In this document: positions 2,516-18,336 of the stretch, piece by piece | How positions within the stretch are numbered: position 1 is the stretch's first letter | How the letters are laid out: each line of letters starts with the position of its first letter | Virus record (IMG/VR): IMGVR_UViG_3300048672_000242 | Span: 1-30,426 of that record | DNA length: 30,426 nt | Origin: a virus | Direction: 5' to 3' (one strand) | Notes under the pieces: model-generated | The model's input: only the letters and a program-made list of their open reading frames with translations | The model's database searches: none | What the model was told of the DNA's origin: nothing | Made by a program: the position numbers and the translations under genes

Positions 2516-2945
2516 ATATCTGCGCAATCTCTTTCGTGAACTTTACGTAGCCTTCCTTGATAGCGTCTTCAAAGTCGATAATCACAAGCGCGGATTTCTC
2601 CATGAGTCGCTTCATCTCTGGAGTCGCGTGGGCGTAGTAGTTGGCGATGCGACCGTAGTAGAATACGTCGTGACGTCCCGCTGCAGTAATTAGGAATGCC
2701 TTTTCTTCCGGAGATAGCCCGCTGGATTTAATCTCTTTGATTAACTTCTTGGCCTTGGACATATCGACCAACTCAATCAGGTGCGGCTTCTTTCCTTTCG
2801 GCACATATATCGGCGTTGGAATCTTCAGCGTGTAATCGGATTCCAGCTTGTCGTCCTCACCAAACATATTCTCCTGCTTCGCGAATGCACGTTCACGCAG
2901 AGGTTCGCGCCTGGGTAGTGGCCGGCGTGGTAGCGGTTTTCCCAT
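2487..2945 (-). CDS. conserved hypothetical phage protein, 152 aa
   Basis: The N-terminus is extremely basic and Pro/Arg-rich (MGKPLPRRPLPRREPLRER), followed by an acidic linker. The folded part begins near residue 40 with 'IPTPIYVPKGKKPHLIELVD', then 'SPEEKAFLITAAGRH', 'RIANYYAHATPEMKRLMEKSA' and 'LVIIDFEDAIKEGYV'. I have the impression that this RH...YYAHA...LMEKSALVIID pattern recurs in phage early regions, often near replication genes, but no biochemical function is known to me. It follows the primase-like gene by one base and overlaps the glycosyltransferase start, so it is an operon member. Confidence 0.65.
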   Translation of the reverse strand: MGKPLPRRPLPRREPLRERAFAKQENMFGEDDKLESDYTLKIPTPIYVPKGKKPHLIELVDMSKAKKLIKEIKSSGLSPEEKAFLITAAGRHDVFYYGRIANYYAHATPEMKRLMEKSALVIIDFEDAIKEGYVKFTKEIAQIYENEHGKTP

Positions 2946-2946
2946 G

Positions 2947-3786
2947 TTATTTCTTACTCCAAATCTGATTCCGCATCGCAGACTCTATCAGCGCTTTGCT
3001 TCCTCCCGCCCGGACAAATGCGCGCATGTCCTTGTATCCGCCGGGAGGTTTCAGGATTATGGAGTTGAGTTTCAACTCCGCTTTAAGCCTTCTCGCTCCC
3101 ACGATTCCAGGTCTTGCTTGTATCCCTCCGGGAAGATTCTTGATTTCATCTTCGTCCGACACCACCACAGCGTTGTAAATCTTCAACCGCTTCAGCGCGG
3201 CCTTGATAAACTCGTTGCCAGATGAACACGTTGGCCGACCAATGGTGTAGAATCCCAACGAGAGCAGTGCGGCGGTGTCCGTCGGTCCTTCCGGAAGGAA
3301 TGCGCAAAAAGTTACCTGTAGGTAACTTTTTGGAAGGAAGATTCCCTGCCTGCTTCCGGTCACGGCCCACTTCTTTCCTTCATCACTCCGCAACCGGATT
3401 CCAATTATGTTCCCGTCTCCGTCACTCATCGGCCACGCCCACGCCTTATACTCCGGAGCGTAGCACGCCCCCAGTGCTATCAATGCTTCCACGAGGACTC
3501 CCAGCCGGTTCGCGTAGGCTTGGAGTTGTATGAGGCTTGTGGTTGCAACCCACGGGGCTAAAAGTGCGGGAGCGTTAATCGAATCCGGAGCCTTCCGGGA
3601 TGGCGGGACGTAAGTTGGACGTGGGATGTTGGATTCATAGAAGTGATACCACCCACCTTTCGGATTCGAGTGCGCACTTTCCACCCGCTGGCATAACATC
3701 GCCCTGTCACCGTAAGTGCACCAGTCTGTGCGTCCGCAGACTGGACAAGGATTCGCCTTTGAAACATGTCTCCAGATTCTGCTCAT
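2947..3786 (-). CDS. Toprim primase-like protein with N-terminal zinc finger
   Basis: 279 aa. An N-terminal zinc-binding site is visible: C14, C17, C23, C32. The C-terminal half has Toprim signatures: 'LPEGPTDTAA' with the catalytic Glu at about 166, and 'VVVSDEDE' at about 207-214 with the DxD acidic pair. Toprim primases make RNA primers. The compact zinc-finger plus Toprim layout without a helicase matches phage or plasmid primase-like proteins, and separate helicases are encoded nearby. The start ATG overlaps the upstream stop (ATGA). Residues 153-160 (KSYLQVTF) are encoded by a palindromic repeat (3306-3331) just before the Toprim core, an unusual in-frame element. Confidence 0.8.
   Translation of the reverse strand: MSRIWRHVSKANPCPVCGRTDWCTYGDRAMLCQRVESAHSNPKGGWYHFYESNIPRPTYVPPSRKAPDSINAPALLAPWVATTSLIQLQAYANRLGVLVEALIALGACYAPEYKAWAWPMSDGDGNIIGIRLRSDEGKKWAVTGSRQGIFLPKSYLQVTFCAFLPEGPTDTAALLSLGFYTIGRPTCSSGNEFIKAALKRLKIYNAVVVSDEDEIKNLPGGIQARPGIVGARRLKAELKLNSIILKPPGGYKDMRAFVRAGGSKALIESAMRNQIWSKK
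3306..3331. repeat. dispersed palindrome, copy 1 (intragenic)
   Basis: A perfect 12-bp inverted repeat: AAAAAGTTACCT, a 2-base centre (GT), then AGGTAACTTTTT. It lies in frame inside the primase-like gene. Related copies occur at 18285-18300 and 26911-26926. Confidence 0.8.
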
Positions 3787-3953
3787 TGATTCTCCAATTG
3801 TTCACCGTTAAATATGTGAAGCAGTCCTAACTCTTCAAGTTCAACTACATACCTGACTTCGTTCTTAGTAGTAAGAAACACTGAAACCACCACGCCTGGA
3901 AAACTGTAGCCTTTCGGCTTGTAGACTTTGTCTCCAACTTTGAATTTAATCAT
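3783..3953 (-). CDS. small KOW/SH3-like protein, 56 aa
   Basis: A 56-codon gene shorter than usual ORF cut-offs. It is supported by four-base ATGA overlaps at both ends: its ATG (3953) with the stop of the 80-aa gene and its TGA (3785-3783) with the start of the primase gene. The peptide starts 'MIKFKVGDKVYKPKGYSFPG', continues with V-rich strands (VVVSVFLTT, EVRYVVELEELG) and ends near 'LLHIFNGEQLENQ'. The pattern 'VGDKV.KPKGY.FPG.V...RYVVE...LLHIFN..QL' is, as I recall, common in phages and looks like a small beta-barrel (KOW/SH3-like) fold. No function is known to me. Confidence 0.8.
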   Translation of the reverse strand: MIKFKVGDKVYKPKGYSFPGVVVSVFLTTKNEVRYVVELEELGLLHIFNGEQLENQ

Positions 3954-4192
3954 CGCCTTTTGCTCTTTTTCTCTAATGTTATCAATACACCGCGTGGAAT
4001 TTTTTCCACTTCCACATCACACCTGAGCACCGTGGCTTCCCATACCTTTACAATCTTCGCTCCCACCCCAACGTTGTCTCCCACCCACGCTTCCATTTCT
4101 TCGCGGGACTCGAAAGATGGATTCGCTTGAAACCTCCAAAGGTTCGGACTCTCCCGCTTGGGCGGAGCGGACTTTCGCGTAGGAGGTTTCAT
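3950..4192 (-). CDS. hypothetical protein, 80 aa
   Basis: ATG at 4192, ten bases after the methyltransferase stop; the TGA overlaps the start of the 56-aa gene. The N-terminus is basic and Pro-rich (MKPPTRKSAPPKRESPN). The remainder alternates strand and helix (NLWRFQANPSFESREEMEAW, then KIVKVWEATVLRCDVEVEK) and ends with a basic KKSKRR tail. There is one Cys and no catalytic motif. I do not recognise the family. Its place in a tightly overlapping run argues that it is translated. Confidence 0.6.
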   Translation of the reverse strand: MKPPTRKSAPPKRESPNLWRFQANPSFESREEMEAWVGDNVGVGAKIVKVWEATVLRCDVEVEKIPRGVLITLEKKSKRR

Positions 4193-4202
4193 TAGCCTGG
4201 CT

Positions 4203-5189
4203 TTAGAGTTTTAGGGTTTGTTCGTGAGCATATTCCGCGCTCTTGGCAAGGCTCTTAATTGCCTGCCGATAATAGGTAGCTTTTAATTCAGAACCCACCC
4301 CCAGTCGGCCATTGATTACCGCACCAAACACCTCGCTACCTACGCCCATAAATGGCGTAAAAACAGTCTCACCCTCGTTCGACCAAAGAATCACCGCTCG
4401 CTCAATTACATCTAACTGAAGTGGATGGCAGTGCTTCTCATCGTCAACATCCCGGCTTTCTTCGTAGGGTAGCACGTTATCAATCCGGATATCATCCCAG
4501 AACGATGACGCGTATTGCCGCCAAATCCAATGACTAAAACGATTCTCGGTCTGCTTACCCTTGTGCCCCTTAAATTCCTGCAACTCATGTGGCATAATAC
4601 GCTCACCAGCGTAGCGATGAAGTCCTGTCGGATGCGCGACCGGGATTTGATTCTCGCCTTTCTTGCGGAACATGAGTAGCTGGTCAGCACCGGCTACGTC
4701 GCAGAGGGTTGAATCTTCGCAAAGCTGTTGGTGGGCCAGTCCCTTCGCCATCGTGCGAAGCCGGACACCTAGCGGCTCTTTCCAAATCATGCGCCGTCCA
4801 CAAAAGATAAATCCGCACTTCTCGTGAAGCCGGATAATATCGCCGGGGAAATCAATCAATCCTGAGCCAGCGTTCGCGGCGACTCCCATCTTTGCAGTCG
4901 GTCCATTCCCGGTTCCGGCAACGTCCATACAATGAACGGCGGAAATTCGCCCCGGCATTGTGATACGGAACAACTCGCGAACGCAAAAACCGTAGTTCTC
5001 CATGAACTGTTGGTAGCTACTATTGTTGCTCATGTCGCGTGGGTCGGATGAGTAGTTGTAAAGTCCAGCAAACGGCGGTGAATAGACACTCATTCCAATC
5101 TTATCGTTGGGAAGCTTGCGCATCACCTCAACGCAATCGCCATTGTATAGCGCGTATCGGTCTGTAATTTTTTGTGGGATTAAAGCCAT
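4203..5189 (-). CDS. site-specific DNA methyltransferase (amino-MTase, beta-class layout)
   Basis: 328 aa. Catalytic motif IV is 'SPPF' at residues 37-40 (MSVYSPPFAG), the signature of N6-adenine or N4-cytosine methyltransferases; SPP(Y/F) is more often N4-cytosine. The AdoMet-binding motif I comes later, as 'FTPFMGVGSEVFGA' at about 277-290, so the order is IV - target recognition - I, typical of beta-class enzymes. 'HPLQLDVIERAVILWS' (255-270) precedes it. No restriction endonuclease gene is adjacent, so this is probably an orphan phage methylase protecting or modifying phage DNA. It overlaps the SNF2-like helicase gene by ten bases, a pairing I recall from other phages. Confidence 0.88.
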   Translation of the reverse strand: MALIPQKITDRYALYNGDCVEVMRKLPNDKIGMSVYSPPFAGLYNYSSDPRDMSNNSSYQQFMENYGFCVRELFRITMPGRISAVHCMDVAGTGNGPTAKMGVAANAGSGLIDFPGDIIRLHEKCGFIFCGRRMIWKEPLGVRLRTMAKGLAHQQLCEDSTLCDVAGADQLLMFRKKGENQIPVAHPTGLHRYAGERIMPHELQEFKGHKGKQTENRFSHWIWRQYASSFWDDIRIDNVLPYEESRDVDDEKHCHPLQLDVIERAVILWSNEGETVFTPFMGVGSEVFGAVINGRLGVGSELKATYYRQAIKSLAKSAEYAHEQTLKL

Positions 5190-6603: not shown

Positions 6604-8355
6604 TCAAAAAGGAACATCATCTTCAAACGCCACCGCAACTTCCGGTTCCCGTCTCGGCATCGGCATCTTCTTAACCTCAACCTTCGGACGCTTCCATCCA
6701 TTCCTGGCGATGGCGTCCATCGCCGCGCTCGCCTGCTCGAAAGACATGTCTGCCGACTCCTTCTTGGAGTAACCGAACTTCTGGAGCGCTGCGGCCTGCT
6801 TGAGTGTGCACTTGTTGTTCTTCCAGCGGTCAAACATCGTATCTATTAGCTGGCGACCTTCCGCGTAGCTTATCGAATCCGGGTCCACGCCTATCTTCTG
6901 GCGCAATACTGCCCGTTGTTTCTCGCTGAATTGTTTTACGTTGTCCCATCCTCTTGGTTTGACCGGCTTCAGGTCTAGTATGTCGAACGGATTGACGCTG
7001 TGCTTAGTGTAGGTTGTCCTTGCTACCAGCCTGGCCTTCCGCGCAGCTTCCTGTAAATGACGCTCACGCAATTCCTCCGCACGCTTTTCTTCTTCTTCCA
7101 ATAGCTTCGCCATATCCACCGGCTTGCCGGATTTCTTGGCAATGTTAATAGCGGAACTTACAACTTCATCGGATACGTTACCGCCAAGAATGTCAGCGGT
7201 GGACATGAGCTTATGCCGTCCGGAGTTTCCGACAAAGTCGATAATCAGGCAGGATGGTTTTACGCTCCGCTCAATCGCCATCGTCCGCATGGTGGCCGAC
7301 GGATAGTTATTAAGCTTGTGCGCAATCGACTCGTGCGGCCGGGTGGCGCGTCCTGCCATCTGCGCATATAGGCTACGGGACTTCGTTGGACGTGCCATGG
7401 ATATGACCTCCACCCCGGAGTCGTCAAACCCTTCGGTGAACACGCCGCAGTTCCAAAGGAATTGAATCTTCCCTAGCGCAAAGTCCTTTACAATCTTCTG
7501 CCTGTCCTCCGTGGGGGTGCCGCCGTGGACGAATGCGGCCATTCCTTGCCTGTGGCGGTTGAATATATCCGCGAGCATCTTTGCGTGGACCACAGAGGCA
7601 GCAAAGCCGATTCCCCGCTTATCTCCGATGATGTCTATCGTGGCCCCGGCTACGCCTTGGACATTCTTTTCGGACTTCATTACTGCGTCCAAGTCTGCTC
7701 CGTTCAAGTCCCCTGCAGTTGTTCTTACGTCCGCAAAGTTTATCCCGGACACGTGGACCATGTCTTGAAGTATCGGAACCAACCAGCCGTCCTTGATGGC
7801 GTCAATTATTTCATAGTCGAATGCGACTTCACCGAACAGCTGTCCCAACGCTTCCTCGTCACTCCTGTCCGGCGTGGCAGTAACTCCAAGGACAACCAAG
7901 TCCGGATTCTGCATATACCAGTCGATGACGCGACGGTAAGTGGACGACGTGGCGTGGTGCGCTTCGTCGATGATTAGCAGGCCGAAGTCTTTCGGGTCAA
8001 ACTTCGTCAGCCGGCCAGCCCCGTCGCCACCGGACGTATGAGTCTGAATCGTGGAGACGATTATGTTGGAGCGCGGGTGGAATAGGTTCCGGTCAGTCTC
8101 CGCCCGATACTGACCCATCTCTATATCCACCTGCTCCCCGGTGATAAGTTGCATCTTATCCCGCGCCTGCCAGATAAGTTCCTGCCGATGCGCAAGAATC
8201 ATGCTTCGCTTCGGAAGCATCCGCTTGACGATATGCGAGAACACGACCGTCTTCCCGCATCCGGTTGGCAAGACTCCAAGCAGAGATCGGTTCCCTTCGC
8301 TCCATAGGCGGAAGGAATTGTCTATCGCTCCGTGCTGGTAAGGGCGTGGCTTCAT
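6604..8355 (-). CDS. DEAD/DEAH-box SF2 helicase
   Basis: 583 aa. Motif I 'GVLPTGCGKTVVFSH' (GCGKT ends about residue 36), motif Ia 'SMILAHRQELIWQ', motif II 'LLIIDEAHHATS' with DEAH at about 130-133, motif III 'GVTATPDR' at about 157-164, motif V 'GVFTEGFDDSGVEV', motif VI 'YAQMAGRATRPH'. This is the RecQ/type III-restriction-like SF2 helicase core common in phages. The C-terminal 180 residues (after 'CLIIDFVGNSGRHKL') carry a coiled, Lys/Glu/Arg-rich segment and a helical tail that ends 'VAVAFEDDVPF'; this acidic end resembles partner-binding tails such as that of SSB. It ends four bases into the next start region. Confidence 0.9.
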   Translation of the reverse strand: MKPRPYQHGAIDNSFRLWSEGNRSLLGVLPTGCGKTVVFSHIVKRMLPKRSMILAHRQELIWQARDKMQLITGEQVDIEMGQYRAETDRNLFHPRSNIIVSTIQTHTSGGDGAGRLTKFDPKDFGLLIIDEAHHATSSTYRRVIDWYMQNPDLVVLGVTATPDRSDEEALGQLFGEVAFDYEIIDAIKDGWLVPILQDMVHVSGINFADVRTTAGDLNGADLDAVMKSEKNVQGVAGATIDIIGDKRGIGFAASVVHAKMLADIFNRHRQGMAAFVHGGTPTEDRQKIVKDFALGKIQFLWNCGVFTEGFDDSGVEVISMARPTKSRSLYAQMAGRATRPHESIAHKLNNYPSATMRTMAIERSVKPSCLIIDFVGNSGRHKLMSTADILGGNVSDEVVSSAINIAKKSGKPVDMAKLLEEEEKRAEELRERHLQEAARKARLVARTTYTKHSVNPFDILDLKPVKPRGWDNVKQFSEKQRAVLRQKIGVDPDSISYAEGRQLIDTMFDRWKNNKCTLKQAAALQKFGYSKKESADMSFEQASAAMDAIARNGWKRPKVEVKKMPMPRREPEVAVAFEDDVPF

Positions 8356-10066: not shown

Positions 10067-10843
10067 TCACAGCCCCAGATGGGCTTTCAACTTGCCCCAG
10101 TCTTCACCGGACTCCGCTTCCTTCCCCTTGCCGAACAGTTCGTCTTGCGCGGCGAACCACTTCGCGCCCATCTTCTTCTCGTCCAGATTCGGATTCGCGG
10201 CCTGGAACGCATCCCAGACAGTCTCCTGGTCGGACTCTTCCACCGTCTCGGTTTCCGGTTCCGGGTCAGGCTCACGGGAAGGCTTGCCACCCTGCGCAGG
10301 CGCACCGGGCTTCGCCGGAGCGGTAGTTTTACCGGCTGCCGGTTTGGACGCGCTGGCAGACTTGCTGGACGCAGCGCCGACGGCTTTGAACTTACTCCCC
10401 CACTTCGCGAGAATGGCCTTGCGGTCAGACTCCGCGATGGGTTCGCTGCGCTTCGCTCCACGGGTGAGCGAATTGAGAAACTTCGCCTTGAACTGTTCCA
10501 CCGGCTCGTCCTTGCCTTCCGGCGTCCAGGAGTCATCGATGTAGCACTGCGCAAGGATGAACTCTGCTTCGCCGGTTTCGTTGACTGGAATCTCTTCCAG
10601 CTCGAAAGGGTTGGTTCCGGCCCAGTCCGGGAAGATTTCCTTCATGCTTTCCCACGTGGAAAGCATGAGCGAACCATCCTTCTTGCCGAAGTAAAAGGTG
10701 TCGACACCTTGATACTTCATGTCACCGCCGATAAGCTCGAAAGCGATTTCAAGCCCCAGCGCTCCGGCTTCGGTTTCCACGATGACCACCGGCTTTGTGC
10801 GCCGTGCGTAATGGTCTCCGGGTTGTGGTAGTATTTTGCTCAT
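10067..10843 (-). CDS. possible phage ssDNA-binding-type protein (DUF669-like context)
   Basis: 258 aa with three parts. A folded N-terminus (about 1-150) has strands 'KPVVIVETEAGALGLEIAFEL', 'DTFYFGKKDGSL' and 'AEFILAQCYIDDSW'. A disordered Ala/Pro/Lys/Glu-rich linker covers about 155-205 (ASSKSASASKPAAGKTT...EPDPEPETET). A short helical C-terminus begins 'ETVWDAFQAANPNLDEKK'. It sits in the recombination module with a Cas4/AddB-like nuclease and a Sak4-like ATPase, where an SSB-type protein is usual. I assign SSB-like function only from context and domain layout, not from a motif. Confidence 0.5.
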   Translation of the reverse strand: MSKILPQPGDHYARRTKPVVIVETEAGALGLEIAFELIGGDMKYQGVDTFYFGKKDGSLMLSTWESMKEIFPDWAGTNPFELEEIPVNETGEAEFILAQCYIDDSWTPEGKDEPVEQFKAKFLNSLTRGAKRSEPIAESDRKAILAKWGSKFKAVGAASSKSASASKPAAGKTTAPAKPGAPAQGGKPSREPDPEPETETVEESDQETVWDAFQAANPNLDEKKMGAKWFAAQDELFGKGKEAESGEDWGKLKAHLGL

Positions 10844-11171: not shown

Positions 11172-11720
11172 TCACTTGAATGGGTTTGAAACCAATGTCC
11201 GAATTTGACCAGCTTGCCACTTCTTCTTTTCTTTTTTGGCGTAGGCGGCGGCGTCGGCGGCGTTGGCAGCGGCGGCGTCGGCGGCGTAGGCGGCGTAAGC
11301 GGCGGCGGCGTCGGCGGCGTCGGCGGTGGCGTAGGCGGCGGCGGCGGCGTAGGCGGCGGCGTAGGCGTAGGCGGCGGCGGCGGCGGCGGCGTAGGCGTAG
11401 GCGGCGGCGGATTTACATTTCATCCGCATTTTTTCCGTTGGGTTTTCCAGGTATTCCAAAGCCGCTTCGATTGCCTGACGCGGGCGCAAGTCCTTCGGAT
11501 ATTTCTTTTCAAAGATGTTTAAAACATCCTTAGCAAAAATACAAGCGAGCCTAACCGATGTCGGTTTGTCTAGTAGGGATTTTTTACGAAGAAACCAAAA
11601 CATCCAGTCTGGCCGTTCACAGTTTTCCCAAGCCTTAACTAAAGTTCTTTGCCCCCGCGCCCATTCCAACCCTTCGTAGCACGGGTTCATTTCTTCAAGT
11701 TTAATAAGTGAGTTTTTCAT
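11172..11720 (-). CDS. Imm-5-like 'putative immunity' protein with Ala/Tyr repeats
   Basis: 182 aa from ATG 11720. The N-terminal 100 residues match a recognisable pattern: 'GLEWARGQRTLVKAWENCERPDWMFWFL', 'VRLACIFAKDVLNIFEKK' and 'DLRPRQAIEAALEYLEN'. I know this from proteins annotated as putative immunity proteins (Imm-5-like), which occur in phages and bacteria. Residues about 105-161 are almost only Ala, Tyr and Asp in AAAYA/ADAA repeats, predicted as a long amphipathic or low-complexity helix. The basic tail is KKEKKKW. The true function is not established to my knowledge. The GCN repeat tract makes slippage-driven length variation likely. Confidence 0.7.
   Translation of the reverse strand: MKNSLIKLEEMNPCYEGLEWARGQRTLVKAWENCERPDWMFWFLRKKSLLDKPTSVRLACIFAKDVLNIFEKKYPKDLRPRQAIEAALEYLENPTEKMRMKCKSAAAYAYAAAAAAAYAYAAAYAAAAAYATADAADAAAAYAAYAADAAAANAADAAAYAKKEKKKWQAGQIRTLVSNPFK
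11238..11408. repeat. GGC/GTA trinucleotide-type low-complexity tract
   Basis: About 170 bp composed nearly only of GGC, GTA and related triplets on the plus strand (GCC/TAC on the coding strand). It encodes the Ala/Tyr repeat of the 11172-11720 protein. Such a tract can expand or contract by replication slippage in steps of three bases without breaking the frame. It also creates long Arg- or Gly-rich ORFs on the plus strand, which are shadows. Confidence 0.9.
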
Positions 11721-12578: not shown

Positions 12579-13632
12579 GAGTTTTTGTTTGTGTTGGGGG
12601 ACTTAGTTCAACGTTGAACTGCTGGATGGAGAATCCTTCCGGTGGCCGGTTGGGGTCAACGGTAAGATTGGAAAGGCAGAACGATTTATAATCGCAGAAG
12701 AAGCAGGTATCATGGTCCACGTGACGCGGCCAGGCTTCGGGATTTCTTTCAGCCCCACCTTCGGACTCCCGAAGATGTGTTATCATCCCGGCCAACGCGA
12801 TACGGTGGCGCTTGAACGATTCGACTTGGTCATCGATGACCGGAACCTCCTTGCGACAAAAATAGAAATCGGGGCGGAGCTTGGTATCTTGGTAAAGCCG
12901 CTCGCAGTATTCGTCTGGAGTCTCTTGGTGCTTCCGGACTTCCCACCCTTTTGACTTATCACCACCCTGAACAGGTTCGCCGTTTTTCTTGAACTGGCGC
13001 ACGCCGTTCGCATCCTCCACGATTTTCTTCCCGTTCTCGTCAAGGTCAACTATCTCCTTGGGATTGATAGACGGCTTCCGGGTAGTATCGTAAAAGATTT
13101 TAGAAATGTCGTAGCCTAGATGTTCCCGTCCTGCGCAAACGTATTGATACACCTGCGCATTAAACTTGAGGCGGGTCCAATAGTCCGACTCCGGGAAGAT
13201 GCTCTCACCGGTGGTCTTGGATTCAATGAGAGTAACGTGCCCGTCCGCCATCGTTCCGATGTTGTCTATCTTTCCCCGGAGGATAAAGCTGCCCGGCATG
13301 TCCGGGTCCACGTAGGTGAATTCGACCTCCGGGTTGAGATAGCCGGAACGCTCCACCTTTCCATACCTGTCATAATAGCCTGCCAGAAGCGCTGCGAGCT
13401 TGGCACAGTCATACTCTTCCAAGTCCGTCCCTTCCGGTATCGCGTGTGCGATGGCGGTCTTATATGACTCGCCTGCCCACCGGGCTTCCATCGCGAGGTG
13501 CCACGCGGTTCCGAACCGGAGCGCACCGGCGGGACGCCTATCCGCTCGCAGTCCAATCTCATAGCTCCAGAAAGACCTGCGCAAGCAGCTTACCATTCCG
13601 GTGAGGCGGGACGCTGTAAGGACGTTGTTCAC
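12388..13632 (-). CDS. PD-(D/E)XK nuclease with Fe-S cysteines (Cas4/AddB-like exonuclease)
   Basis: 414 aa from GTG 13632, which overlaps the upstream stop as GTGA; a start at 13695 would lie inside the zinc-ribbon gene. Visible core: C16 ('SCLRRSFWSYE'), 'RFGTAWHLAME' at 39-49, catalytic 'GKIDNIG' (D123) and 'LIESKTTG' (E137, K139), then 'FNAQVYQYV'. Three further Cys are in 'DTCFFCDYKSFCL' (C310, C313, C319). With C16 this is the Cas4/AddB Fe-S layout. These act as exonucleases that resect ends for recombinases such as Sak4. The last roughly 64 residues are low-complexity Pro/Arg-rich and are encoded antiphase to the start of the Sak4 gene, which suggests a lost stop codon. Confidence 0.88.
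   Translation of the reverse strand: MNNVLTASRLTGMVSCLRRSFWSYEIGLRADRRPAGALRFGTAWHLAMEARWAGESYKTAIAHAIPEGTDLEEYDCAKLAALLAGYYDRYGKVERSGYLNPEVEFTYVDPDMPGSFILRGKIDNIGTMADGHVTLIESKTTGESIFPESDYWTRLKFNAQVYQYVCAGREHLGYDISKIFYDTTRKPSINPKEIVDLDENGKKIVEDANGVRQFKKNGEPVQGGDKSKGWEVRKHQETPDEYCERLYQDTKLRPDFYFCRKEVPVIDDQVESFKRHRIALAGMITHLRESEGGAERNPEAWPRHVDHDTCFFCDYKSFCLSNLTVDPNRPPEGFSIQQFNVELSPPTQTKTHEQTAPSTPSKLPIPTRPAAQADKGVVRKAGSNKARTPNPPVRNRGNRKVNARVPAPRNDRRR
12605..12620. repeat. 16-bp perfect palindrome near the nuclease/Sak4 junction
   Basis: AGTTCAACGTTGAACT is perfectly self-complementary. It lies 27 bp before the Sak4-like start codon and encodes QFNVEL in the nuclease frame. It may be a protein-binding site, or a trace of where the nuclease once ended. 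No second copy was noticed. Confidence 0.6.
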
Positions 13633-13937
13633 TTGCACCTGTCCTTCCCGTATGCGGTCACGCCTTCCTTCGCTTCGCCGTCGCCCGCCACCCACCCCTT
13701 CGCTTCCTTATCCTTAACCGGCCTGCCACAGTAGGTGCACGAGCGCTGGTTAAGCAGTGGGCGATTACATCCTGCGCAGACGGTCTTAGTAGGTTCCGCC
13801 GGGGCGCGGGCCGTGCTGACCGGCTGCTTACAGTTGGGGCACTCCACCTTCCAACGGATTACCCCGGAGCGAAAGACCGCGAGGAAGTTCACCCCGCAGC
13901 CACACCTTACACTTACTGATTTCGATTTCACTTTCAT
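13629..13937 (-). CDS. double zinc-ribbon small protein, 102 aa
   Basis: Three Cys clusters: 'RCGCG' near residue 12 with 'CPNC' at about 33-36 (first ribbon), then 'CAGC' and 'CTYC' (second ribbon, residues about 54-70). The tail is basic and ends '...KDRCK'. Proteins with tandem zinc ribbons act as small nucleic-acid-binding or protein-interaction adaptors; no enzyme domain is present. The gene follows the RHH gene by two bases and overlaps the nuclease start (GTGA), so it is translationally coupled to the recombination nuclease. The specific function is unknown. Confidence 0.65.
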   Translation of the reverse strand: MKVKSKSVSVRCGCGVNFLAVFRSGVIRWKVECPNCKQPVSTARAPAEPTKTVCAGCNRPLLNQRSCTYCGRPVKDKEAKGWVAGDGEAKEGVTAYGKDRCK

Positions 13938-13939
13938 AA

Positions 13940-14170
13940 TTACTTTTTAATTGGACGGCCAGACGACTTCCGCTCACAGCTCCGGTAGAGCAACACCCGC
14001 TCCGCTTTCTTCAGGCAGAAGAAATTCTGCAACGCGATGGTCACAACGGACGCAACGGAGATTCCGCTGGCCTTCGCTTCCTCCCGGATATTCGCCGGGA
14101 GGTATGAAGGAATATCCACGTTCAGCGCGAGCTTCTTCTTATCGGGATTTTTGGAAGGTTGATTTGGCAT
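13940..14170 (-). CDS. ribbon-helix-helix transcriptional regulator
   Basis: I chose ATG 14170, giving 76 aa, because an operator copy (14190-14208) covers the region an upstream GTG start (14212) would use. The fold is read as a beta-strand 'KLALNVDIP' (about 13-21), helix A 'SYLPANIREEAKASG' (22-36), and helix B 'ISVASVVTIALQNFF' (37-51), followed by a basic C-terminus (RSCERKSSGRPIKK). This matches the Arc/MetJ/CopG fold, dimers of which insert the paired strand into the DNA major groove. Two operator-like palindromes lie just upstream, and related copies lie in the divergent promoter region, which supports autoregulation and control of both operons. The regulatory claim is inference. Confidence 0.8.
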   Translation of the reverse strand: MPNQPSKNPDKKKLALNVDIPSYLPANIREEAKASGISVASVVTIALQNFFCLKKAERVLLYRSCERKSSGRPIKK

Positions 14171-14189: not shown

Positions 14190-14208
14190 GGAGTTTCTAG
14201 GAACCTCC
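14190..14208. promoter_or_regulatory. operator-like palindrome O1 upstream of RHH gene
   Basis: GGAGTTTCTAGGAACCTCC, a near-perfect inverted repeat 20 bp upstream of the RHH start codon. Core GTTTCTAGGAAC at 14193-14204. Shares its core with copies at 14230, 16191 and 16293. Confidence 0.75.
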
Positions 14209-14229: not shown

Positions 14230-14246
14230 GGAGGTTTCTAGGAACT
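14230..14246. promoter_or_regulatory. operator-like palindrome O2 upstream of RHH gene
   Basis: GGAGGTTTCTAGGAACT, with core GTTTCTAGGAAC at 14234-14245, 41 bp (about four helical turns) from the core of O1. It lies between the end of the UvrD-like gene and the RHH start. I find no clean -10/-35 pair here, so the exact promoter of the RHH gene is uncertain. Confidence 0.75.
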
Positions 14247-14248
14247 AA

Positions 14249-16048
14249 CTAAAAGCCGGAAGCCCCTTGCGAGACTTCCGGCGAACCGTCGATGCGGATT
14301 ACTGCACTATCGGACTCGACAACCGTCACGACCTGCTCGTGGCCGGCGATTGAGACGACGTGGCCAACTTCCAACTGGACCAACTCCGGCGGAGGTTCCG
14401 GGAGTGGTTCACCAACGATGGCTTTGTAGTCCTCCCGTGTCCGGACTCCCATCTCAACTTCCGTCATCCGCTTAGGCGGAGCCTGTTTAGAAGGGGCTGC
14501 CACCTTCGCTGCTTCGACTGAGGCTGGCTTTTGTTCCGCGAGGCTATTCCCAGACGCCCCCACCATGTAAAGCTCCCGTTGCGCCCGGGTGATGGCAACG
14601 TAGTAAATGTTGTCTTCCTCGCGTCCCTTTCCCCGGCGAAAAGTCTCGGTGAGGCAGAACACCCGGTTCCACTCCAACCCCTTTGCCTTGTGGACGGAGG
14701 AAAGGACAACGGCGGGTTTGGAGTTGGAGTCCGTATCAGAAAAGAGGTTCGTGATACGAGCCTCAATATCGTTCACGCTGGAAGCCCCTTCCGCAATTGC
14801 GCAAAGAGTCGCGGCGATGTCGGAAACCTGCTCCACCTTCTTTTCGATATTCTTGGACTTGGAAGCGTTGAGCCGCGCGATTTGCTTCTCGCTCCACGCT
14901 TGGACTTTCTCAAGGAAGTTCGGAACGGACTTGGCCTTCATGCTGCGAACCATCCCAACGAGCTGCTTGCCGATGTCACGGCCTTCGATGCGTGCCGGGA
15001 TATTCTTGCGCAGAAGCGAAAGGGCGAGCGGCATAAGCGGAGCGTTTAGTCGGGAGAGTATCGCGTCACCTACCGCTACCGTCCCCATCATGGCGAACTG
15101 GTTTACGTTCTGGACGGAACCTTCCGGAGACGCGTCATGCCACTTGTAGTCCGGCACAACCTCTTGAGCGAGCCGGACGATGGACTTGGCGCAGCGGTAG
15201 GTAGTCGTCAGCGTAAGCTCGTGCGCGGCTAACGTCTTGCGCATCATTTCGAGTCCGTCTTGGACCGCACCCCGGAAACCGTAGATGGCCTGGCGGTCAT
15301 CGCCCACGACGATTACCGGGCCACGGGAAGCGAGACGAGCCATCGTAAGCTGCGGGAGGTTCATGTCCTGGGCTTCGTCGATTAGCACTAAATCGTAAGA
15401 GGGTTTGACCCATCCCATCGCTACCGGAAGCCACACCATGTCGTTGAATGATATTCGTCCGGCTTTATCCGGGACGCGGGAAAGTTCCAAGACCCGGAGC
15501 GCTGCTCCGCAAAGCTCCCGGTTAGAATCCCACACGATGTCCTGCGCGTCAATAATGGAAAGTAAATCCGCTTCCGTAGGGGCGATGCAGGTGTTCTTCG
15601 CAAAGCCGACCAGCTTCACGACCGCCGCGATGAATGGCTTGGCCGCGTCCCCGTAACCGCACACCTCCGCAGCCCGGTCAAACTCCACATCGTCATCCGG
15701 CTTCGCGTTCCGCCACACGTTCCGCACGAAGCGGTATCCGACGGAGTGGAGCGTGAGGACTTCCACGCGAGGGTCGACAATCTTTTCCTCCGCTTCCTTC
15801 TGGTTCCGCTTGTTGAACACGGCGTAGAGAATCTTGCGGAAGGATTCGGGGACGTAGCGGAAACCCTCTTTCGAGGTGGCCGTCTTGCCGGTTCCGGCAC
15901 GCGCCTTGATGACGAAGTTGGTTGCGGACTTCGGGACTAGCGAAGCCATCGCCGCGAAGATGATTTCCTGTTCCTCACTCCACGTATGTTTCGGAGCGCG
16001 GGCTGCGCGGTTTTGCGCAAGGGCGGAGGTGGGGGAAAGGGGTTTCAT
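14249..16048 (-). CDS. UvrD/Rep-like SF1 helicase
   Basis: 599 aa from ATG 16048 with a good Shine-Dalgarno (GGAGGT, 5 nt spacing). Motif I 'ARAGTGKT' 49-56, motif II 'LIDEAQD' 222-228, motif III 'VVGDDRQAIYGFRGA' 247-261, motif IV 'TTYRC' 282-286, motif V 'SVHKAKGLEW' 451-460, motif VI 'YVAITRAQRELYMVG' 483-497. This is a full SF1A helicase set of 3'-5' type; the size matches compact phage UvrD-like helicases. The last roughly 90 residues are Ala/Pro/Glu-rich with a small beta-rich end (VGHVVSIAGHEQVVTVVES). It is the first gene of the leftward operon and probably transcribed from the operator-controlled promoter at 16183-16211. Confidence 0.93.
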   Translation of the reverse strand: MKPLSPTSALAQNRAARAPKHTWSEEQEIIFAAMASLVPKSATNFVIKARAGTGKTATSKEGFRYVPESFRKILYAVFNKRNQKEAEEKIVDPRVEVLTLHSVGYRFVRNVWRNAKPDDDVEFDRAAEVCGYGDAAKPFIAAVVKLVGFAKNTCIAPTEADLLSIIDAQDIVWDSNRELCGAALRVLELSRVPDKAGRISFNDMVWLPVAMGWVKPSYDLVLIDEAQDMNLPQLTMARLASRGPVIVVGDDRQAIYGFRGAVQDGLEMMRKTLAAHELTLTTTYRCAKSIVRLAQEVVPDYKWHDASPEGSVQNVNQFAMMGTVAVGDAILSRLNAPLMPLALSLLRKNIPARIEGRDIGKQLVGMVRSMKAKSVPNFLEKVQAWSEKQIARLNASKSKNIEKKVEQVSDIAATLCAIAEGASSVNDIEARITNLFSDTDSNSKPAVVLSSVHKAKGLEWNRVFCLTETFRRGKGREEDNIYYVAITRAQRELYMVGASGNSLAEQKPASVEAAKVAAPSKQAPPKRMTEVEMGVRTREDYKAIVGEPLPEPPPELVQLEVGHVVSIAGHEQVVTVVESDSAVIRIDGSPEVSQGASGF

Positions 16049-16182: not shown

Positions 16183-16211
16183 ACCATAGCGGAGGTTTCT
16201 AGAAATGTCTA
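16183..16211 (-). promoter_or_regulatory. leftward sigma70-like promoter with operator in spacer
   Basis: On the minus strand: -35 TAGACA (16211-16206), 17-bp spacer, -10 TATGGT (16188-16183). The spacer contains the operator half TTTCTAGAAACCTCC. A start near 16176 gives a roughly 128-nt leader containing a perfect 7-bp stem (16090-16096 with 16104-16110) before the UvrD-like gene. Confidence 0.65.
16191..16206. promoter_or_regulatory. operator-like palindrome O3
   Basis: GGAGGTTTCTAGAAAT; core GTTTCTAGAAAT (16195-16206). It overlaps the spacer of the leftward promoter, so a bound repressor would block RNA polymerase. A further degenerate half-site (TCTAGAAC) follows at 16208-16215. Confidence 0.75.
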
Positions 16212-16287: not shown

Positions 16288-16316
16288 TAGACAGGTTTCT
16301 AGAAACCTCCTAGAGT
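16288..16316 (+). promoter_or_regulatory. rightward sigma70-like promoter with operator in spacer
   Basis: -35 TAGACA (16288-16293), spacer exactly 17 bp (16294-16310), -10 TAGAGT (16311-16316). The spacer is the operator itself. The predicted start near 16323 gives a roughly 47-nt leader with a hairpin before the first plus-strand gene. It mirrors the leftward promoter in design: same -35, same spacer length and same operator. Confidence 0.65.
16293..16310. promoter_or_regulatory. operator-like palindrome O4 (best copy)
   Basis: AGGTTTCTAGAAACCTCC; the first 16 bases are a perfect palindrome (16293-16308). Likely the strongest binding site of the set because both half-sites are intact. Confidence 0.8.
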
Positions 16317-16328
16317 ATCTATCAGCGT

Positions 16329-16348
16329 CCGGAGGAATTAACCTCCGG
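16329..16348 (+). other. leader hairpin before the first plus-strand gene
   Basis: CCGGAGG, loop AATTAA, CCTCCGG: a perfect 7-bp stem. It sequesters a GGAGG Shine-Dalgarno-like sequence 35 nt upstream of the ATG at 16370, so it could affect translation or mRNA stability. Confidence 0.55.
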
Positions 16349-16369: not shown

Positions 16370-16819
16370 ATGAAAACACAAATCATTAACTTCATCAATA
16401 ACCTCACTGGCGTCACGGCTCTCCGCGCTCAAGTCTCCGCGCTGGAGGCCCTAACCGGAAAGCTCCACATCGCATTGAACGACGTGGCCACCAGCCGTCT
16501 CACCGAGGAACAAGTTAACTCCGCTATCGAACGTGCCACCGAAGATTTTGTAACCGAACGGAAACTCAACGATACAGTGGAAGATGCGATGAACGGAAAC
16601 GACTGGGATTCCATCGTGTCAGAAACCTTCGGTGAGCGCCACACTTCCTCCGCCGTTTCGGAAGCCGTGGAGGAAGCGATTGAAGAGCGTCTCCGCAACA
16701 GCGACTTCGATGAGGGAATCGTGGAAACGGTTATCCAGGCGCTGGAAGATTCCGAAAAAGATTCCGAACTTGTCGAAGCGATTCAGGCCGCGCTCCGCGA
16801 CCACGCCGTCACGAAGTAA
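16370..16819 (+). CDS. acidic helical protein of unknown function, 149 aa
   Basis: I start it at ATG 16370 (MKTQIINFINNLTG), not at 16205: the upstream stretch holds the operator, promoter and hairpin, and its translation is not protein-like. About 31 Asp/Glu against 13 Lys/Arg, spread in helical segments such as 'EEQVNSAIERATEDF', 'DTVEDAMNGNDWDSI', 'VSEAVEEAIEERLRNSDFDEG' and 'VIQALEDSEKDSELVEAI'. No Cys or membrane segment. Strong acidity and first-gene position behind a repressed promoter make a DNA-mimic or host-protein inhibitor thinkable, but there is no motif to prove it. Function unknown. Confidence 0.7.
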   Translation: MKTQIINFINNLTGVTALRAQVSALEALTGKLHIALNDVATSRLTEEQVNSAIERATEDFVTERKLNDTVEDAMNGNDWDSIVSETFGERHTSSAVSEAVEEAIEERLRNSDFDEGIVETVIQALEDSEKDSELVEAIQAALRDHAVTK

Positions 16820-16840
16820 TTGACTCCCCGGTCACCTTCC

Positions 16841-16888
16841 TCCCGGTAACGGGACGGCGGGTGAGCGGGAAGGCAATCACGCCTTTCC
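16841..16888 (+). other. paired hairpins between two plus-strand genes
   Basis: First hairpin TCCCG-GTAA-CGGGA (16841-16854), second GGAAGGC-AATCAC-GCCTTTCC with one bulged T (16868-16888). They lie between the acidic-protein gene and the next start (16907). No T-run follows, so they may be mRNA processing or stability elements rather than terminators. Confidence 0.45.
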
Positions 16889-16906
16889 AAAACTAAAACG
16901 CGAATT

Positions 16907-17515
16907 ATGAAACAGAAATTCCAAGTCGGTGACCAGGTAGTCGTGAACGATGAAAAGTCGTATCGGTTCGGACGCGAGTTTGCAACCGTCGTGGCGGTGG
17001 AACCGGACAAGCAGAGAATCCCCGAAGGCGAGCGGGTTGACGGGTTGGTAGTGGTCTTGTGGCCAGACCTGCAGATGACCTCCACCTACGCCCCGAAGAA
17101 TCTCACCGCCCTGACGGAGTGGCGGAACCTCCAGTTCAGGAACGGTGGGCATACCGTCCTCGGTGAAACCTGCTCCTGCGGGCAGGATACCGTAGTCTGC
17201 CAGGTGTGCGCCAAAATCGTCTGCGGGTCAATGGCGAGCTGGATGACCCCGGCTCCCGGTAAGACCTTTAACGGGAATGTTTGCGCGGCCTGCGCGAAGG
17301 TAGCGAAGTCGGAACCCTCCCCGGCTAAGACGGACGAGATTTGGTTCATCCAAGACGCCAACGAGTATGGCAACTATTACGACTCCGTCGGCTTCCGGTA
17401 TGTTTCCAAGGAGGTAGCGGTGGAGAAACTCGAATCGTGGCGCAAGGCTTTCCCCAAGCGGAACAGCCGTCTCATCCTCCGCGTTGACACGTTCGTAGCG
17501 GGAGGTGCGAAATGA
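16907..17515 (+). CDS. Cys-rich protein with KOW-like N-terminus, 202 aa
   Basis: Starts at ATG 16907 after leader AACTAAAACGCGAATT. The N-terminal 65 residues (FQVGDQVVVNDEKSYRFGRE, VVAVEPDKQ, LVVVLWPDLQ) look like a small beta-barrel of KOW type. The middle has seven Cys: C89, C91, C98, C101, C106, C126, C129 ('TCSCGQDTVVCQVCAKIVC' and 'CAACAK'), suggesting a zinc-binding module of treble-clef/ribbon type. The C-terminal part 'IQDANEYGNYYDSVGFRY' is mixed alpha/beta. Overlaps the next gene by four bases. I do not recognise the family; a nucleic-acid or ribosome-related role is conceivable. Confidence 0.65.
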   Translation: MKQKFQVGDQVVVNDEKSYRFGREFATVVAVEPDKQRIPEGERVDGLVVVLWPDLQMTSTYAPKNLTALTEWRNLQFRNGGHTVLGETCSCGQDTVVCQVCAKIVCGSMASWMTPAPGKTFNGNVCAACAKVAKSEPSPAKTDEIWFIQDANEYGNYYDSVGFRYVSKEVAVEKLESWRKAFPKRNSRLILRVDTFVAGGAK

Positions 17516-17907
17516 AATACGTCATGTTCACCAACGTCAAGACCGGCCAACGTCTTCCGGTAATCTTCCCGGACTTCTTGACTCACCGAGATATGCGGGC
17601 GGGAGCGGACTGGAAGCCTACCAGCGCGGGATTCTTCAACGGTCTCACTGAGAAGCCTTACGGGAAAAGCGAAACGCTCAAGCTCCGCTCGCGGGAGGAT
17701 GACGCAGAGTTGATTATTGCGACCCTTACGAACAGCAATGCTATAATCCTCTTTGCGCAGGATGAGGAAGGGGAGCTGGAGAAGTTGAAGGTTGCGCAAG
17801 AAGCTCCCGCCCCGGTTCCGGTAGTCATTAACCGCTGCCCGACGTGCGGCTTGGGATACACGGACGCGGAGCGGGCGATGGCCTGCTGCGAGGAAAACTT
17901 CAGATAG
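17512..17907 (+). CDS. hypothetical protein with C-terminal Cys cluster, 131 aa
   Basis: ATG at 17512 overlaps the preceding TGA (ATGA). The N-terminal domain (MKYVMFTNVKTGQRLPVIFP, then GLTEKPYGKSETLKLRS) is mixed strand/helix. A flexible Ala/Pro stretch (EAPAPVPVV) leads to 'RCPTCGLGYTDAERAMACC' with C109, C112, C125 and C126, a likely zinc knuckle. Coupled translation with the 202-aa Cys-rich protein suggests joint function. No family recognised. Confidence 0.6.
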   Translation: MKYVMFTNVKTGQRLPVIFPDFLTHRDMRAGADWKPTSAGFFNGLTEKPYGKSETLKLRSREDDAELIIATLTNSNAIILFAQDEEGELEKLKVAQEAPAPVPVVINRCPTCGLGYTDAERAMACCEENFR

Positions 17908-17919
17908 GAAACTAAAACT

Positions 17920-18282
17920 ATGAACCAAGAAGAAATCGAAAACTCACCACAGCAGAAACGTCTTGTCCGGGATTCGATGGGAATCCTGCTGAACGAACTG
18001 CGCGAGCTGGAGAAGGCAATCAACGAAGACGCGGACGGCGATGAGGGGGAATCCGTAGCGCTGAAATCCATAGCCCAACTTGACGACCTGGCGAAACTTC
18101 ACATCGACTCCTGGACTCCGGAGCATATTAAGGGGCTTCTTGAAATCCTTCTTGCGCAGTCGCTCCATCGCGAGGTTTCCGGAATCGCGGTCAAGTGCGT
18201 CATGATTCACAGGGAGACCGGAATACCGCTTTCCAAAATCGGGGAGGGATTATTCAAGAAGGCTTGTAAACTTTGGCCGTAA
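17920..18282 (+). CDS. helical hypothetical protein, 120 aa
   Basis: ATG 17920 preceded by GGAAACTAAAACT, the A-rich leader style of this genome. Acidic and helical N-terminus (NQEEIENSPQQKR, ELRELEKAINEDADGDEGES), then helical 'LLEILLAQSLHREVSGIAV' and 'KIGEGLFKKACKLW' at the C-terminus. No domain is recognised. It is the last gene of the plus-strand cluster; its TAA abuts a copy of the dispersed palindrome and a strong stem-loop follows. Confidence 0.6.
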   Translation: MNQEEIENSPQQKRLVRDSMGILLNELRELEKAINEDADGDEGESVALKSIAQLDDLAKLHIDSWTPEHIKGLLEILLAQSLHREVSGIAVKCVMIHRETGIPLSKIGEGLFKKACKLWP

Positions 18283-18300: not shown

Positions 18301-18336
18301 GAATCCCCGCCGGGACGCGAATACCGGCGGGGATTC
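18301..18336. terminator. strong stem-loop between convergent operons
   Basis: GAATCCCCGCCGG (18301-18313), 10-nt loop, CCGGCGGGGATTC (18324-18336): a perfect 13-bp stem. It sits between the last plus-strand gene and the last minus-strand tail gene (ends 18425), so it probably stops transcription in one or both directions. No clear U-tract, so intrinsic termination is likely but not certain. Confidence 0.65.

Follow-up and report, generated by a model that had tools for sequence, protein, structure and literature searches.

A rightward four-gene cluster of an uncharacterised tailed phage as a candidate early operon with palindromic operators and a ribbon-helix-helix-like regulator

The 30,426-bp IMG/VR virus record analysed here (the window, meaning the whole stretch of DNA) carries four genes that run against the direction of its other major genes, raising the question of what this cluster encodes and how its transcription is controlled. 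An earlier note, made from the sequence alone, had singled out the genes at 16370–18282 as the only rightward ones. Our analysis agrees: the four are intact coding ORFs on the + strand, each of which fits the codon usage of the securely identified genes of this phage better in its own frame than in any other, and the remaining major genes lie on the − strand. The cluster is bounded by a divergent promoter region at one end and by a 13-bp stem-loop at the other. ORF1 (16370..16819, +) encodes a 149-aa protein that is predicted to be all-helical, with a pI of 4.3 and exactly the 31 D/E and 13 K/R residues that the note had estimated. Its frame is open back to 16205, but translation probably begins at the ATG at 16370, because the predicted promoter sits within this upstream open stretch. 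ORF2 (16907..17515, +; 202 aa, 7 Cys) and ORF3 (17512..17907, +; 131 aa, 4 Cys) overlap at an ATGA, and ORF3 combines an N-terminal phrog_3988 domain with a Cys-containing tail. ORF4 (17920..18282, +) encodes 120 aa of helical-looking sequence. ORF1, ORF2 and ORF4 are orphans.

The untranslated parts of the cluster contain several predicted RNA structures, and searches of the Rfam and tRNA models gave no match. The ORF1 leader contains a perfect 7-bp hairpin (16329..16348, +; CCGGAGG-AATTAA-CCTCCGG; z −3.8) that includes a GGAGG ~30 nt 5' of the ATG, and the ORF1–ORF2 spacer is structured, with two hairpins (16827..16885, +; z −4.0). After ORF4, the stem-loop at 18301..18336 has the perfect 13-bp stem that the note had described, with a 10-nt loop; the absence of a T-run after the stem sets it apart from a canonical intrinsic terminator. 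It lies between convergent transcripts, with the cluster arriving from the left and the structural genes from the right, and given this arrangement it could serve both directions. Most genes in the window have A-rich leaders without a Shine-Dalgarno sequence, such as AAACTAAAAC before ORF2 and ORF4; the few exceptions include the helicase gene and ORF3, which have GGAGG. This scarcity hints at a host with non-Shine-Dalgarno initiation. We found no close prophage in reference genomes, the best relatives being Myxococcota loci at 41–43%. Elsewhere in the window, the non-coding stretch between 520 and 680 has short repeats, both direct and inverted (GTCCGCTCGCA, AGGGTAGCTCGCAGGTC; 589–680), and the product of the gene at 11172–11720 (−), whose long tail is of low complexity and made up of Ala, Tyr and Asp (YAYAAAAAAAYAYAAAYAA...), resembles phage 'putative immunity protein' sequences.

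The promoter of the cluster had been claimed to be operator-controlled. A CTAG-centred palindrome, AGGTTTCTAGAAACCT, occurs four times in the 30 kb at up to three mismatches, versus 0.08 occurrences expected, and four copies arose in none of 100 shuffles; the palindromes are thus real and far above chance, and their role as operators is predicted from sequence. Predicted operator O2 (16293..16308) is AGGTTTCTAGAAACCT itself, a perfect 16-bp palindrome; only two other palindromes of the window have perfect 8-bp arms. O1 (16193..16208; AGGTTTCTAGAAATGT) was also detected as a direct repeat, and O3 (14191..14206) and O4 (14232..14247) lie upstream of a small repressor-like gene, so that each of the four palindromes sits in one of the gaps on either side of the helicase gene. 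The predicted cluster promoter P_R (16288..16316, +) reads TAGACA-GGTTTCTAGAAACCTCC-TAGAGT, and the predicted divergent helicase promoter P_L (16183..16211, −) reads TAGACA-TTTCTAGAAACCTCCGC-TATGGT, each with a palindrome within its 17-bp spacer. A scan for sigma-70-type promoters found two versus 1.0 expected in shuffles, and promoter scores alone mean little; we take P_R and P_L seriously because they coincide with the palindromes.

The same palindromes connect the cluster to its neighbours. The UvrD-type helicase gene (14249..16048, −) is the divergent neighbour of the cluster, and its predicted promoter has the same palindrome. At its end, a predicted terminator (14255..14282, −), consisting of a 12-pair stem followed by TTTTAG, would split the helicase transcript from that of the repressor-like gene, consistent with the latter having its own promoter; no sigma-70 promoter was found before it. 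O3 and O4 sit downstream of the helicase gene and directly before this gene (13940..14170, −), which the note leaves out and which encodes a 76-aa putative autorepressor resembling, at sub-threshold level, ribbon-helix-helix (RHH) proteins of the Arc/BrnA type. Its best PHROGs match is phrog_582 'Arc-like repressor' (E 0.009, sub-threshold) and its sole NCBIfam match is the RHH antitoxin BrnA (E 0.0041, 17.3 bits versus a cut-off of 60); Pfam gave no match. RHH families are therefore top or near-top matches in PHROGs and NCBIfam, at scores below the curated cut-off in every library (best E 0.004). An AlphaFold model built from two sequences, of low confidence (pLDDT 64.5), has helices at 26–35 and 39–48, plausible places for an RHH fold, and no strand. 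Foldseek and VIA searches with this model listed no RHH chain, a result that is uninformative either way at this pLDDT. Related proteins recur after the helicase in other phages: one follows it in L004 (BLASTP E 4e-5 between the two proteins; none of 2000 shuffles scored as well), and a more distant one, weakly Arc- and RelB-like, lies ~1.1 kb after it in L012 (1 of 2000 shuffles). A search of L004 for operators found no repeated site between its two regions above chance. Arc and Mnt of phage P22 are small RHH repressors that control phage promoters through short palindromic sites with a TAGA/CTAG core. The window resembles that system in its small RHH-like protein, its short palindromes with a TAGA/CTAG core and its putatively controlled phage promoters; by contrast, the protein similarity here is sub-threshold and the system is known from sequence.

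We also compared the window with related phages. L015/G011 (41,964 bp) has a replication cassette in common with the window, including the helicase, a Sak4-like ATPase, an SF2 helicase and, as judged by eye, a RecB/Cas4-like protein; G007 has the cassette and a tail-region protein in common with it. In both L015 and G007, the genes in the slot preceding the helicase are small and read in the same direction as the helicase. In the window this slot contains the four cluster genes, inverted, and the inversion makes the cluster look isolated. The small genes that the relatives hold in this slot are unrelated. L015 has a palindrome of its own, TTGTCTTACAA, distinct from that of the window and present at three sites versus 0.17 expected. 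One site, at 4783, lies before a small-gene cluster containing an ORF3 relative, between possible TGGACG and TATATT hexamers noted by eye; the other two, at 10627 and 10680, lie before the small gene that follows the helicase. The layout is therefore seen twice with different palindromes. The L015 post-helicase protein has no detectable relationship to the 76-aa protein of the window. A GC-rich stem without a T-run, GGCCCTTCCAC-CGTC-GTGGAAGGGCC, comparable to the one after ORF4 of the window, lies between the last tail gene and the small-gene cluster of L015. In L033 (G007), a 14-bp inverted pair, AATCATAAGCAACT (3249–3262) and AGTTGCTTATGATT (3398–3411), occupies the divergent region between the early operon and the structural genes.

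The sequences themselves show the ORFs, where the four sites lie, that a repressor-like gene is present and that L015 has an analogous layout. We propose, with evenly balanced confidence, that the cluster serves an uncharacterised tailed phage as an early accessory operon, shut off by a small RHH-like autorepressor. Host RNA polymerase would read the cluster rightward from P_R, with leftward transcription of the helicase gene from P_L. The 76-aa protein would bind the CTAG palindromes in both promoter spacers and before its own gene and, having accumulated, would silence its own gene along with the operon and the helicase promoter. We infer binding of the 76-aa protein to these sites with repression as the outcome, early expression, and products whose place of action is the host (defence, transcription or another process) and not the virion. 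Control by operators is well supported as a prediction, more strongly than in the note, because four candidate operators, a repressor-like gene and the same layout in a relative point to it; the placement of ORF3 relatives in small-gene regions also favours the proposed operon. Points against the proposal are the sub-threshold level of the RHH matches, the lack of a strand in the 76-aa model, the unrelated L015 protein, the negative sigma-70 promoter scan before the repressor-like gene and the orphan status of ORF1, ORF2 and ORF4. The description of the cluster as an isolated module, likewise well supported by the sequence, needs one qualification: these are the only rightward genes, but the cluster has its regulatory sites in common with the helicase and repressor-like genes and belongs to the putative circuit for that reason.

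The main rival, although a doubtful one, takes the CTAG element not for an operator but for a phage promoter motif, recognised by a host or phage-modified RNA polymerase; the cluster would then be one of several transcription units using it. All four sites have in common an oriented 3' extension, TTYCTAGAAAC(C)TCC, pointing toward the downstream gene, which favours a promoter motif, and L009, where a 24-bp promoter-like sequence recurs exactly in front of several genes, indicates that such elements occur in this phage group. In L009, this 24-mer, GGTTTTATATAGGTAGAGACTATG, ends in a gene's ATG at 7425, 7701 and 9567 (+), corresponding to 8141, 10007 and 10283 (−) in L041, the same contig; its core, TATATAGGTAGA, is present in about nine copies, and the 24-mer looks like a phage-specific promoter producing very short or leaderless mRNAs. 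The window element, however, is palindromic, with perfect 8-bp arms at O2, and lies between separate −35/−10-like hexamers; moreover, two copies adjoin the repressor-like gene, and none of the four CTAG elements has a conserved −10 sequence at a fixed distance. It is far less probable that the repressor-like gene encodes the antitoxin of a toxin-antitoxin pair or a lysogeny regulator instead of an early-gene switch. The RHH antitoxins BrnA, HicB and RelB are among the weak matches of the 76-aa protein or its relative, but the adjoining gene (13629–13937) gives weak matches to zinc-ribbon models and none to a toxin, and the lack of a close prophage in reference genomes argues against a lysogeny regulator.

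With regard to the gene products, the claim that none has a recognisable family held for three of the four. ORF1, ORF2 and ORF4 have no relatives in viral contigs, phage records or the ORFs of 28 loci, and only insignificant matches or none in Pfam, NCBIfam and PADLOC; for ORF2, 13 related records and plasmids also gave none, and the L015 gene that precedes the ORF3 relative there has no similarity to it. ORF3, by contrast, matches phrog_3988 (E 2.5e-7, residues 1–73 to profile positions 1–89) and has relatives in 91 annotated phage records, chiefly of Erwinia and Pseudomonas phages. All of the relatives listed are hypothetical or unannotated, not known structural or metabolic proteins, and the result that the note had named as refuting its reading therefore did not arise. 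ORF2 and ORF3 had also been called Cys-rich or zinc-knuckle-type proteins. The cysteines are there, in the pattern CXC-X8-CX2C-X4-C..CX2C in the middle region of ORF2 and CX2C..CC in ORF3, but the CX2CX4HX4C spacing is absent in both.

The phrog_3988-like part of ORF3 spans residues 1 to about 91, and relatives in L015, L002 and L003 are 40% identical (over 94 aa for that of L015). Judged on a four-sequence alignment and the annotated phage relatives, the residues in common are K2 Y3 V4 .. P16 .. P20 .. H25 .. S38 A39 .. G51 S53 .. L56 .. D64. We examined the genomic setting of the relatives in four phage regions: in Pbunavirus SN small hypothetical genes surround it, and the minor head gene lies on the opposite strand; in Erwinia phage SNUABM_30 and Serratia phage SMP it lies within runs of small genes; and in Brevundimonas phage Polewnik it lies among small hypothetical genes and adjoins an AAA ATPase. 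In Polewnik (L028), the ORF3 relative (3989–4342) directly follows the ATPase gene (2568–3989), making the ATPase a possible functional partner. The window protein thus agrees with the family from Pbunavirus, Erwinia jumbo, Brevundimonas and Serratia phages in its KYVMF..PVIFP..H..M..SAGF..GxSxSL..D pattern and in its placement in a small-gene region; it differs in its Cys-containing C-terminal tail, which is absent in the relatives read.

Whether these products counter host defences was the more specific question. That they are anti-defence proteins, with ORF1 as a DNA mimic, seems unlikely to us. The acidity of ORF1 (31 D/E in 149 aa) is in favour, as are weak matches to the DNA mimic DMP12 (Pfam E 0.12, PDB E 0.52); these, however, are not significant, troponin C scores equally in the PDB search and shuffled ORF1 also attains an E of 0.1 in Pfam, so we dropped the DMP12 similarity as evidence. 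The AlphaFold model of ORF1 is helical but, at a pLDDT of 50.6, too poor for fold comparison, making its Foldseek matches (best E 0.67) meaningless. Defence-related PADLOC models matched none of the cluster products. The architecture of the locus is also in favour: in acr-aca operons, inverted repeats within the core promoter block RNA polymerase (PMC9410906), and P_R, which would drive a small-gene operon, likewise has an inverted repeat within its core. Further points of likeness are a small phage repressor (a candidate here), one to two inverted repeats in or beside the core promoter, and autoregulation. On the other hand, described Aca families are helix-turn-helix proteins (PMC9410906), whereas the regulator here is RHH-like and encoded outside the operon, across the helicase gene; Pfam, PHROGs and NCBIfam found no helix-turn-helix protein in the four-gene operon, and known anti-CRISPRs are absent among the products. 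The resemblance is therefore one of mechanism only. In archaeal viruses, anti-defence genes were predicted from a regulatory motif common to early genes (aca8; PMC11065993); the common regulatory sequence before putative early genes is similar here, but the promoters are bacterial-type, the genes are few and the case stands at the level of sequence.

An extended form of this idea, which we also regard as improbable, is an anti-defence island in which three relative-less families (acidic helical, Cys-rich and helical) and a phrog_3988 protein are controlled together with the replication helicase by an RHH regulator in the Aca role. Somewhat less probable again is a reading of the cluster as morons, a neutral accessory region with no role in infection under standard conditions. 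Unrelated small genes in the same slot of relatives and the orphan status of three of the four cluster genes would fit such a region, but the four intact frames, the phage-like codon usage and the dedicated predicted promoter speak against it. The cluster is most likely ordinary in kind, a phage early operon, with orphan gene contents.

Taken as an early operon under a putative RHH-like autorepressor, the locus offers a testable circuit, with one candidate repressor, four sites and three transcription units, in a phage group known from metagenomes only. phrog_3988 emerges as a widespread family of phage small-gene regions, without an assigned function in the records searched; if the anti-defence island were real, the ORF3 family, found in many phages, would be a widespread early host-interaction protein. 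The common operators provide a route to the early genes of this phage group.
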